Virus record (IMG/VR): IMGVR_UViG_3300046798_000035
Coordinates: 1 to 21,451 of that record
Length of the DNA stretch: 21,451 bases
Origin: a virus
Direction: 5' to 3' (one strand)
Shown here: in pieces, positions 9,736 to 21,437 of the stretch
How positions within the stretch are numbered: position 1 is the first letter of the stretch
Layout of the letters: each line of letters starts with the position of its first letter
Position numbers and translations under genes: made by a program
Notes under the pieces: model-generated
Seen by the model: only the letters and a program-made list of their open reading frames with translations
The model's database searches: none
What the model was told of the DNA's origin: nothing

Positions 9736-10824
9736 CTAGCGTGCTCGCCTATTATAGCGTTCCTTAAATCCTTCTAAATCTTCTATTTGTTCAGCAGTTA
9801 ATGACTTTTTATCCCTAGTTCCAAATTTCCATTCCATATATTCTTTAGGAGATAGTCTCTTAGGAGTTCTTCTAGGCGTAATATCCGATGAAACTCCCGG
9901 AGTTAAATTTACACCACTATTACTAAGTAAATCTTTAATTTTCTTTGCCTTAATATTTCTAGGCATTTGTTGTAAACTAGGTCTAGCAACATAATTTCTA
10001 TCAGCTATATTAGTCATAGCTTGATTAATATTCTGGCGTCTTTCAAGATTAGTAGAACCCTCGGCAGCTTCACCAGCTACGCGAGCATTAGTCTCAAATG
10101 GAACGCGAGCATATCCCTCAAGATCCTGAGATAGTTGATATAATTCATCTGCATTTTTATTACCTAGTCCTGCCGCGCCATGAGTAAATTCATGATAGGC
10201 TGTGTTACGAGCCTCTCCGGGATTATTCATAGTTCTCTGAACTCCATAATTAGTAACCTTTAGTGGCATAGGTTCCCTAGGCTTAATGGGACCATGCTCA
10301 GGTAGGACTATTCCGGCCATTGATGTTCCTATTCTTCCCGGAACTGGCCTATCTATTTCTCCCATCTGAGGGAATATATTAGCAGCAACGCGAGGATAAC
10401 CTTTTCCCGCTGCTTCAAATGCTGGACCCATTTCTCCTCTAAGACGTTGACTTAGAGCTTGATATAATTTAGTGGCAGACTTTCTACCCGGTATATCATT
10501 CCAATATGGATTTACGGCTAATGAGGTTCCACCCAATCCTTTAACTATTGGGTCAACCGCCTGACCAATCTGAGTCATTGCATTAGCTACATACCCTGAA
10601 CTAGATTCGTCCTGAGCAGGGTCTATTCCAAGTAATCCTTTAGGAACATTAGCCGCAACATCTACTACGTCACGACCAACCTTTTTCCATTCAGGATCAT
10701 TAGCTTGTCGTTGCCTCGCGCTCGCATCATTCTGGTATATCATTTCAGACGTAGGCTCAGGCGCGGTAGGGAGATTGAATCCCATACGCCTAAGCATCGC
10801 CATAGTAGGACTAGTATCAGCCAT
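9736..10824 (-). CDS. Putative zinc metallopeptidase-like protein (HEFTH)
   Basis: This encodes 362 residues from ATG 10824, one base after the stop of the 43-codon gene, so translation is probably coupled; no strong ribosome site is seen. The N-terminal half is mostly disordered and helical. Residues 208-222 hold TAYHEFTHGAAGLGN, with HEFTH at 211-215 matching the HExxH zinc-peptidase signature. Downstream, FETNARVAGE (243-252) gives Glu candidates for a third ligand, as in gluzincins. The C-terminus is basic with PRRTPKRLSPKEYMEWKFG. Lying between TerL and portal, it could be a head maturation protease or a virion-borne hydrolase for entry or lysis. The zincin call rests on one motif plus its spacing, so the function is tentative. 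Confidence 0.75.
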   Translation of the reverse strand: MADTSPTMAMLRRMGFNLPTAPEPTSEMIYQNDASARQRQANDPEWKKVGRDVVDVAANVPKGLLGIDPAQDESSSGYVANAMTQIGQAVDPIVKGLGGTSLAVNPYWNDIPGRKSATKLYQALSQRLRGEMGPAFEAAGKGYPRVAANIFPQMGEIDRPVPGRIGTSMAGIVLPEHGPIKPREPMPLKVTNYGVQRTMNNPGEARNTAYHEFTHGAAGLGNKNADELYQLSQDLEGYARVPFETNARVAGEAAEGSTNLERRQNINQAMTNIADRNYVARPSLQQMPRNIKAKKIKDLLSNSGVNLTPGVSSDITPRRTPKRLSPKEYMEWKFGTRDKKSLTAEQIEDLEGFKERYNRRAR

Positions 10825-18349: not shown

Positions 18350-18416
18350 TAAACCAATTCTCGAAGTGTGCCGGGCATAGTCTGTCTAATTCAGTAAAAT
18401 GAGCGGAGCGAATCAA

Positions 18417-19172
18417 ATGCTATATGGAAATGAGAAATCGAAGAACGGCCAGTGCGAAGTCTGCGACAAAGACAATATTCGCGTAGTCGAGCACTACGGC
18501 AATATGTGGTTCTGTCCAGAATGCTGGCAACTAGAAGTTAAGGCCAGTATCGAGAATATGGCTCCTCTCGCTCAGGATGCCAGAGTACAGGCGTATAAGG
18601 ATAGCTACACCACGCGAGTGATTGAAACCGCGAAAGTATTGGATGAGAGTGTCGAAGTTAAATCCGACATATTCAATGCAGCGACACACTCCATCGATGA
18701 AATGAAAAAGGCTATCGACGCCGATGCCTCGATTGAGAACAAGCCTTACGCGCTTGCCGAATTTGTCATTTCGCGGGCGGAACACTTCAAGAAGGTCATT
18801 TTCGATGCTCAGAATGCCCTCATCGAAGCCAACACCAATCAAAAGGCCATTCAGGTATATCTGAACAACTTAGCGAATAAGCTGAGAGCAGATGAGCGTG
18901 AAAAGCTGAAAATCGCGGATATCTCATATCAGCCCGCGAAAATCAAGGCTAAGGTCGCCAAGATTTCGACCACTGGCACCTCGTCGAAAGTTCAGAAAGA
19001 CAAGCCAAAAAAAGTCGAAAAAGTCAAGATTGACAAGGCCGAAATTCGGCGTGTGGCCGCGACACTGGGAATCGACGAATTCACTCTCCAGATGATTGTT
19101 GTGTCGAAGGGCTGCACCGTCGAACAGGCGGCTGCCGTAATTCGCCGCAAGATGTCTGGGCCTAAGGAATAA
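18417..19172 (+). CDS. Zinc-ribbon protein with helical body and small C-terminal helical domain
   Basis: I favour ATG 18417 (251 residues) because GGAG lies eight bases before it; ATG 18399 in the same frame has no ribosome site and would add six residues. Near the N-terminus two CxxC pairs (CEVC and CPEC, 17 residues apart) form a zinc ribbon. A long helical body follows (SIDEMKKAIDADASIENKPY, then AEFVISRAEHFKKVIFDAQN), then a Lys/Pro-rich linker. A compact C-terminal three-helix domain (IRRVAATLGIDEFTLQMIVV, SKGCTVEQAAAVIRRKM) resembles UBA-like or HTH-like folds. It lies 45 bases before the SprT-SNF2 gene on the same strand, so the two probably act in the same process, perhaps as adaptor and motor. 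The family is not recognised. Confidence 0.85.
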   Translation: MLYGNEKSKNGQCEVCDKDNIRVVEHYGNMWFCPECWQLEVKASIENMAPLAQDARVQAYKDSYTTRVIETAKVLDESVEVKSDIFNAATHSIDEMKKAIDADASIENKPYALAEFVISRAEHFKKVIFDAQNALIEANTNQKAIQVYLNNLANKLRADEREKLKIADISYQPAKIKAKVAKISTTGTSSKVQKDKPKKVEKVKIDKAEIRRVAATLGIDEFTLQMIVVSKGCTVEQAAAVIRRKMSGPKE

Positions 19173-19217: not shown

Positions 19218-21437
19218 ATGATGATGGACCGTCACCAAGCCTCACTCTATGCGCGAGAACTACTCAATAACTACGGCCTAAACAATTGGGGCGTGCGTAT
19301 TACGTCGGACCCTAATCTTCCATTCCTCGGGAAGTGTATGCACGCCGATAAGTGTATTATGCTGAACGGCGCGCATATCGATATTCACCCTGCCGCGGAA
19401 GTCATTGACACAATCAAGCACGAAGTAGCCCACGCGCTTACACCCGGTCAGGCTCACAATGGAATCTGGGAAGCGAAAGCGCGTGAAATCGGATGCAAGA
19501 ACACTATCGCGTGCTCTCACCTCGACTTGCCTGAACACGTCATCGACGCAATCCGAAGCGGTCATACGGTGGAAGTCACCGTCGAAGAAAAGATAGTCGA
19601 ACAGGTCATTCGGAATGTGACCCACAAGGTAACTCGATTGCAAGACAAGTGCCCTGAATGCGGAAAGGTTGCTGTCGAAGTCAGCCAGTCAGAAGAAATC
19701 GACACAGACGGTAATCTCTGCAAAATCATCACACTGGAGTGCTTCCATATCATCAAGCGGATTCTGCCGAAGGGCACCGCATTCGATTCGATGATTTCCA
19801 ACTTCTGGAAAGATGAAGTGGCGGAATGCAAGCATGAATGGCCCACAAAGGAAAAGGCCAAAGCACTCCACATTCCGTCGAATCAGTGTGAAAAGTGTGG
19901 AGAATTCAAACTCTATAACTTCCAAATACTTGGTGCTCAGCGTTGCGAAGCGGCATTAGCCGTTCAGAAGGGCTTCGGCATATTCGATGACATGGGCCTC
20001 GGTAAGACTATTCAGGCTCTTGCGATTCTGAAATTCCATGCAAAGAAATACAACCCCACAATCATCGTCACGAAATCCGCTATCAAGTTCCAATGGTTCA
20101 AAGCCGCTATCACATGGCTTGGACCTGACTTCATGGCGCAAACCCTCGCGACAAGTAAAGACCCTATCCTACCGGGACTCAAGCTTTATATCATTCCATA
20201 TGATTTGCTCCGCCGGTTCCCACGCGAGAAACTCCACAAGCGTGGTTTCAAACTTGTCATTCTCGATGAGGTGCAACAAATCAAGAATCCTGATAGTTCG
20301 CGCACGCAGGAGGTCCGTAAACTCGTTAGCGCCAATCCTGCTTGTAAGGTTATCGAGTTATCAGGGACACCCTGGAAAAATCGAGGTAGTGAATTTTTCC
20401 CAGCGTTGAATCTGATTGACCCGATGAAATTCGGTTCGTATCAGCGATATCTTGATACGTGGGTCCAGTATCACTGGGAAGGCAATAAGAAGAAGATGGG
20501 CGGCATACGTAATGTGCCGAAGTTCAAGGAATACGTCAGTAACCTCATTATCAGGAGGGAATACAACGAAGTAATGGACGAATTCCCGGACGTGAATCGC
20601 ACGAAACTGGCCGTCGAATTGGATTCGCTGGAACAGGACACCTACGACGAGTCAGTCAGCGAGTTTGTGGCGTGGTACAACGATTACGTCATTGGCGGCG
20701 AGGAAGACAAGATTAGCGGTATCGAAATTCTCGCCAAGATGGCGCGTATGCGTCATATCACTGGCCTCGCGAAAATCCCGGCCACACTGTCATTCGTGGA
20801 GCAATTCGTCGAGGACACTACGGATAGGAAGCTGGTTATCTTCGTTCACCATAAAGACGTAGGCGAGCTGATGTTCTCCGCGCTCTCCAATATGGATGAG
20901 GGAACCAATCCATCGTGGCATCACTTGGCGAAAGAGTTGGATGCCGAGGGAATTCGCGTTTTCCAGTACACGTCGAAGCACACTGGCCGCCCTGAAGGCT
21001 ATCAGATACAGGATGACTTCAACAATACGCCACGCTGTGTTATGATTGCATCGACGCTGGCGTGTGGTGAGGGACTCAACTTGCAGACGTGCCACGATAG
21101 CGTGCTGCATGAGCGTCAGTGGAATCCCCAGAATGAGGACCAAGCTACGCCGGGCCGATTCCGTCGAATTGGTCAGAAGTCGAGCGTCATTAACGTCACC
21201 TGCACAGAGGCGGATGGCACCATTGACCAGCAGTTGGATGCCATAGTCGAAGGCAAGCGTAGGGACTTCCATGATGCCATGAACAATGGGAGTGAAGTGC
21301 CCACATGGAATCAGGGAGCCTTCGCGAAGCAACTCGCTGAGATGATTGTTTCCAAGCATAAGGAGAAGAAAGGGAATAAGCCCACCACAACGAGTGGCAA
21401 GATAGTCAAGAGTATTACGGCTGCTGCTTCATTCTAG
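19218..21437 (+). CDS. SprT-like metallopeptidase / zinc-binding / SNF2 ATPase fusion
   Basis: This encodes 739 residues from ATG 19218, eight bases after AAGGAG. Residues 1-100 form a SprT-like domain: HEVAH (68-72), third ligand candidate His80 and Trp84 (AHNGIWEAKAREIG). SprT/SPRTN-type peptidases act at DNA, on cross-linked proteins. Next come CPEC (145-148) with later cysteines, and Cys204 with CEKC (224-227), likely zinc sites. The SNF2 motor follows: DDMGLGKT (257-264), DEVQ (350-353) in place of DEAH, SGTP (382-385), KLVIFVHHKD, ASTLACGEGLN, and a motif VI QATPGRFRRIGQ with one extra residue. The tail is basic. It may strip or degrade proteins on DNA during phage replication or counter host DNA-bound defences; both are inferences. 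The gene is complete, ending 14 bases before the window edge. Confidence 0.95.
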   Translation: MMMDRHQASLYARELLNNYGLNNWGVRITSDPNLPFLGKCMHADKCIMLNGAHIDIHPAAEVIDTIKHEVAHALTPGQAHNGIWEAKAREIGCKNTIACSHLDLPEHVIDAIRSGHTVEVTVEEKIVEQVIRNVTHKVTRLQDKCPECGKVAVEVSQSEEIDTDGNLCKIITLECFHIIKRILPKGTAFDSMISNFWKDEVAECKHEWPTKEKAKALHIPSNQCEKCGEFKLYNFQILGAQRCEAALAVQKGFGIFDDMGLGKTIQALAILKFHAKKYNPTIIVTKSAIKFQWFKAAITWLGPDFMAQTLATSKDPILPGLKLYIIPYDLLRRFPREKLHKRGFKLVILDEVQQIKNPDSSRTQEVRKLVSANPACKVIELSGTPWKNRGSEFFPALNLIDPMKFGSYQRYLDTWVQYHWEGNKKKMGGIRNVPKFKEYVSNLIIRREYNEVMDEFPDVNRTKLAVELDSLEQDTYDESVSEFVAWYNDYVIGGEEDKISGIEILAKMARMRHITGLAKIPATLSFVEQFVEDTTDRKLVIFVHHKDVGELMFSALSNMDEGTNPSWHHLAKELDAEGIRVFQYTSKHTGRPEGYQIQDDFNNTPRCVMIASTLACGEGLNLQTCHDSVLHERQWNPQNEDQATPGRFRRIGQKSSVINVTCTEADGTIDQQLDAIVEGKRRDFHDAMNNGSEVPTWNQGAFAKQLAEMIVSKHKEKKGNKPTTTSGKIVKSITAAASF

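Follow-up and report, generated by a model that had tools for sequence, protein, structure and literature searches.

The 3' end of the window, by which is meant the whole 21,451-nucleotide stretch of viral DNA that was analysed, is occupied by a 739-residue open reading frame in which a SprT-like protease appears to be joined to an SNF2 ATPase. SPRTN-type proteases attack obstacles bound to DNA, alongside other machines that reach or unfold these obstacles. The locus therefore raises the question of whether the fusion is genuine and, if it is, what a phage would gain by attaching such a protease to a motor of its own.

Domain composition and predicted fold

The original prediction, that a SprT-type domain and a full SNF2 motor share one frame, was borne out by the open frame itself, by Pfam and PHROGs matches and by the predicted fold (Table 1). 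All of the motif positions it had given were exact. The SprT motif residues are HEVAH (68-72), His80 and Trp84. The first zinc-binding segment pairs C145-C148 (CPEC, 145-148) with C175-H177 (CFH, 175-177) and the second C204-H206 (CKH, 204-206) with C224-C227 (CEKC, 224-227), while the SNF2 motifs are DDMGLGKT (257-264), DEVQ (350-353), SGTP (382-385) and QATPGRFRRIGQ (642-653). The sequence AAGGAG lies 5' of the start of the fusion gene in the window, and Met3 (19224), which matches the usual start in relatives, is possibly the true start of the protein.

Table 1. Features of the fusion gene and its upstream neighbour in the window
Feature	Position	Strand	Basis
SprT-SNF2 fusion gene, 739 aa	19218..21437	+	single open frame; Pfam and PHROG matches
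SprT-like metalloprotease domain, residues 1-115	19218..19562	+	PF10263, AF2/Foldseek, invariant motif
Variable low-confidence linker, residues 116-136	19563..19625	+	pLDDT about 47-68; length varies among relatives
Two Zn-binding segments, residues 137-228, part of the motor module	19626..19901	+	conservation; first kept without SprT
SNF2/SWI2 two-lobe ATPase motor, residues 229-690	19902..21287	+	Pfam, PHROGs, structure matches; invariant motifs
Conserved 257-aa upstream partner with a C2C2 zinc knuckle at the N terminus and a helical body	18399..19172	+	conserved locus position

The Pfam SprT-like family (PF10263) matched residues 37-94 with an E-value of 6.7e-6 and a score of 26.4 bits, against a curated cut-off of 25.6, and scored 31-40 bits in relatives. 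The matches to SNF2-rel_dom (PF00176; residues 255-486, E 1.1e-26) and Helicase_C (PF00271; residues 527-651, E 3.4e-5) were also above their curated cut-offs. In PHROGs, residues 2-144 matched four phage families of unknown function (1.4e-16 to 2.6e-15) and residues 229-693 matched the SNF2 'DNA helicase' family phrog_62 (1.5e-71).

An AlphaFold model of the whole chain, built with 38 sequences, had a pLDDT of 82.6 with a low-confidence stretch at about residues 100-140 between the domains, and the SprT part modelled alone with AF2 had a pLDDT of 87. The N-terminal domain has a predicted SprT/minigluzincin fold, for which Foldseek returned selecase, projannalysin, Spartan (6MDX, TMq 0.53) and Wss1. 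The full model matched Chd1, ISW1, Ino80, CSB and the Sulfolobus SNF2 core, and the best solved relative of the motor by sequence was 1Z63 (profile match, E 5.9e-37). The comparison originally proposed, of each part with its presumed family, thus gave SprT folds (Spartan, Wss1) for residues 1-115 and SNF2 folds for the motor. Membership of the SprT family is indicated by the score above the PF10263 cut-off, by HExxH with a third His ligand (H68, E69, H72, H80) and by the predicted fold, and that of the SNF2 ATPase family by SNF2_N with Helicase_C, Walker A, DExx and motif VI. Because the linker that joins the two domains is of low confidence, no defined mechanical coupling between them is predicted.

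Conservation and setting of the fusion

A first scan of IMG/VR gave 66 loci. When the SprT domain alone served as the query, 438 relatives were confirmed, and the complete proteins among the best 80 of these 438, which were kept, were essentially all fusions. When identical motors were dropped, the IMG/VR set comprised at least 71 fused proteins, 10 that had no SprT domain, one that was split across frames and three that were cut by a contig end. In the split member (L057:7992-10078), SprT and the SNF2 part are encoded in two different frames that overlap, which could reflect a genuinely split gene, a damaged one or an error in sequencing; gene fission is not concluded, because a frameshift or sequencing error explains the frames equally well. 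This member could be taken to suggest that a sequencing or assembly error had joined two genes, but at least 71 non-identical fused proteins from independent contigs, the outcome of the survey of architectures that had been proposed at the outset, refute that reading and leave it practically no chance of being correct. The fusion was confirmed as real and beyond chance, and it is neither a frameshift nor an assembly artefact. Its carriers are a group of uncultured phages.

The residues H68, E69, H72, H80 and W84 were invariant in 38 aligned diverse fusions, as were those of Walker A, DExQ and motif VI; the first zinc segment was invariant and the second nearly so. The ratio dN/dS in close pairs was 0.05-0.17 for SprT, which indicates that the protease is under purifying selection, and 0.04-0.08 for the motor. 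These data bear on the precedent of plasmid ArdC, a DNA-directed protein of a mobile element whose antirestriction function does not depend on the active site of its Spartan-like peptidase domain (PMC7213743). By analogy, the phage SprT domain might be a DNA- or protein-binding tether with a dispensable peptidase activity. However, HExxH, His80 and Trp84 were invariant in all aligned fusions and HExxH was intact in every fused member scanned, with zero degenerate copies, so that a tether of this kind seems very improbable. ArdC also differs in having an ssDNA-binding domain where the fusion has a motor; an N-terminal domain of that type is absent from the fusion, where SprT is at the extreme N terminus.

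Two fused members have an unusual Walker A. It reads GLGKQ, not GLGKT, in L105:1922-4021, and in L046:7971-11141 it is interrupted (DDMGLGK / T) by an in-frame insert of about 300 residues, which is intein-like and gave weak matches to intein-containing NCBIfam entries.

Among named phage records, none spanned 80% of the fusion-protein query, and among the SNF2 helicases matched in a viral structure library, judged from their lengths and names, there was no SprT fusion. A scan of 84,980 prokaryote genomes for short peptide patterns, which divergent fusions may escape, found distant SNF2 motors only and no fusion. A search for the host by homology in these genomes likewise gave only motors that were 23-28% identical and had no SprT coverage. 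No SprT-SNF2 fusion was found on plasmids, where the match of widest cover had no SprT; an apparent fusion on Streptomyces plasmids (91% query cover) was a spurious N-terminal alignment in which HExxH was missing. The open-access literature, to which the search was confined, yielded no description of a SprT-SNF2 fusion and no pairing of 'SprT domain' with 'SNF2', in agreement with the original statement that the fusion is not known to have been characterised. The one text there that covers SprT, SNF2 and phage is a jumbo-phage review, which deals with them separately (PMC7824862); to judge from titles and abstracts, the other papers that a broader search gave were reviews of DNA damage in eukaryotes. 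The SprT-SNF2 protein appears to be a new domain architecture built from known families.

The gene also has a constant setting. Where the sequence extends far enough upstream, the 257-residue zinc/coiled-coil partner precedes the motor gene in nearly all loci, whether or not SprT is attached; it had no significant family match in Pfam, PADLOC or NCBIfam and a marginal one in PHROGs. The order in relatives is the partner gene, the fusion, an exonuclease-like gene and genes for a Sak4-like annealing protein, a UDG-PolA polymerase and a DUF3987 primase-like protein, by which gene content the fusion sits in a predicted replication/recombination operon. One polymerase, an 845-residue protein (L255:13837-16371, minus strand), combines a uracil-DNA glycosylase superfamily domain with a family A DNA polymerase, and a UDG-like start was seen in a fused phage (G009) as well.

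The operon, with its UDG-PolA, Sak4 and exonuclease genes, and the SPRTN/Wss1-like predicted fold would both suit DNA-protein-crosslink repair proper, that is, SPRTN-like housekeeping removal of covalent adducts in front of the phage replication fork, while the motor would serve as a recombination remodeler of the Rad54/UvsW type. The phage protein resembles SPRTN/Spartan and Wss1 in its SprT fold, its HExxH with a third His and its DNA-replication setting. Nevertheless, SPRTN carries its own zinc-binding subdomain (PMC9240642), whereas residues 1-132 of the fusion contain no zinc cluster of that type; the fusion also has an SNF2 motor of its own, and it is phage-encoded. Moreover, a housekeeping role would not lead one to expect that phages lose the protease repeatedly and retain the motor, as described below, and we consider this explanation rather improbable.

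Loss and exchange of the protease

The SprT-less relatives start at or just before the motif VTRLQ.KCPxCGK, which corresponds to query residues 134-138 and places the cassette junction at about residue 138. All of them keep the first zinc segment, and all except L052 and L233 keep the second. The two segments are therefore present as originally described, but they belong with the motor module and not with SprT. It had also been reasoned that relatives with the SNF2 part alone and a degenerate HExxH would speak against the proposal. SNF2-alone relatives do exist, 10 of them distinct, but a degenerate HExxH was found in none; the protease was either intact or absent.

The SprT-less members were scattered over the motor tree. 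A careful tree required six changes of state, five of them forced by well-supported branches, and a larger, quick tree required nine, again with five forced. Provision of SprT in trans was rejected as an explanation, as SprT-less contigs of 46.6, 47.7, 44.6, 41.0 and 34.3 kb had no SprT match anywhere; seven fused contigs of 46-48 kb had exactly one each. Compared with a small sample of 11 stand-alone phage SprTs, the fused SprT domains grouped in a single clade on an unrooted tree (support 100/99), a pattern that would suit one acquisition followed by losses. The stand-alone proteins, from Gordonia, Streptomyces, Mycobacterium and T4-like phages, have the same domain (33-43% identical) in chains of about 150-250 residues, but the 11 sampled ones lie outside the fused clade.

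The protease was also exchanged. Between the loci L013 and L005, identity was 42-57% in the SprT domains but reached 88-100% in most of the motor, and the flanks were colinear on both sides with about 80-85% DNA identity. Forcing the discordant groups together was rejected (AU p 0.001 for the SprT tree and 4e-12 for the motor tree), p values that are descriptive because the groups were picked after the trees had been seen. Because phages have repeatedly lost or exchanged it but kept the motor, the protease looks like an optional, exchangeable cassette, and the motor like the constant part of the system.

An exchangeable protease could be an anti-host or anti-defence device, in which the motor scans phage DNA, SprT cleaves DNA-bound host proteins (restriction or defence translocases, nucleoid proteins) and the cassette follows the host arsenal. 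Presence or absence of the cassette and its exchange at a fixed junction fit such an arms-race module, and the patchily distributed SprT-like peptidases of jumbo phages have been suggested to target host proteins (Iyer et al. 2021, PMC7824862). Yet the gene lies in the replication/recombination operon rather than in an accessory locus, the low SprT dN/dS shows nothing to suggest that diversifying selection acts within a cassette class, and swaps also arise from general phage mosaicism, so that we regard this explanation as possible but doubtful.

The proposed role of the fusion

The reading that we prefer, and to which we give an even chance, is that the protein is a phage SNF2 dsDNA translocase or remodeler of the replication-recombination operon, with an exchangeable N-terminal SprT protease for proteins stuck on DNA. 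The motor, to judge from its intact SNF2 motifs, would bind duplex DNA and track along it using ATP. Blocking proteins would then reach the flexibly tethered protease and be cleaved, as the SprT fold and the SPRTN precedent suggest, and cleavage would leave the phage DNA free to be replicated and recombined. The core function would lie with the motor, and the protease would be an add-on, whose value or substrate would depend on the host background; this dependence is proposed to explain the repeated loss and cassette swapping. The turnover of the cassette makes a host-dependent substrate plausible, although ordinary phage mosaicism could yield such turnover too.

Several observations favour the remodeler-protease reading: 1) both catalytic centres are intact, 2) the predicted folds match the two families, 3) the protein is under purifying selection, 4) the gene lies in the operon described, 5) the protease has a history of loss and exchange, and 6) the two functions are encoded in proximity in the phages Theresita and Olihed. 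Against it stand the 10 SprT-less relatives, the low-confidence linker and the stand-alone SprT genes, which are not beside SNF2 genes. As ten relatives have no protease, coupling of motor and protease is not essential.

The proximity deserves comment. In Olihed an SNF2 helicase gene is followed directly by a SprT gene, and in Theresita the two are close, separated by a single small gene on the opposite strand. Both functions are thus encoded near each other, as in the fusion, but in two separate genes, and the distant motor begins at the SNF2 core and has no zinc segments. A general partnership of SprT and SNF2 genes in phages was not supported, since 10 of 50 contigs with a stand-alone SprT had an SNF2 match and in none of the 50 was it a direct neighbour. 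The functional link accordingly rests on the fusion and on one other phage group, that of Theresita and Olihed.

The motor has relatives elsewhere. The phrog_62 SNF2 helicases of Thermus phage phiLo and Rhodothermus phage RM378 are the same kind of motor (25-27% identical), but unlike the fusion they match without a SprT domain. The defence proteins ZorD, DpdE and DrmD, and also RapA, have an SNF2 motor, but they are host genes with different accessory domains. Membership of a defence system was rejected, the NCBIfam scores being far below the cut-offs (ZorD, 65 of 1500 bits; DrmD, 50 of 610; DpdE, 33 of 500).

We infer that the fusion may both pull and cut DNA-bound proteins. A stronger and more speculative version, which we think unlikely, is a single-chain DNA-translocating protease, in which the SNF2 motor would mechanically deliver or unfold DNA-bound proteins into the attached SprT domain, with the cassette tuned against host proteins. 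If true, such an enzyme would be the DNA-track counterpart of the ATP-dependent proteases. Related phages with the same motor and an intact protease, another cassette or none offer a natural comparative system for two questions, namely whether a SprT protease can be fed by a translocase and what use phages have for such a protease.

Two further observations concern other HExxH or SprT-like sequences. In the structural half of the window, a 362-residue protein (9736-10824, minus strand) contains the HExxH-like sequence YHEFTHGAAG and matched nothing in Pfam or PHROGs. A very large phage contig of 390 kb (G048, of locus L320) gave two SprT-like matches that exceed the Pfam cut-off, together with three of lower score.
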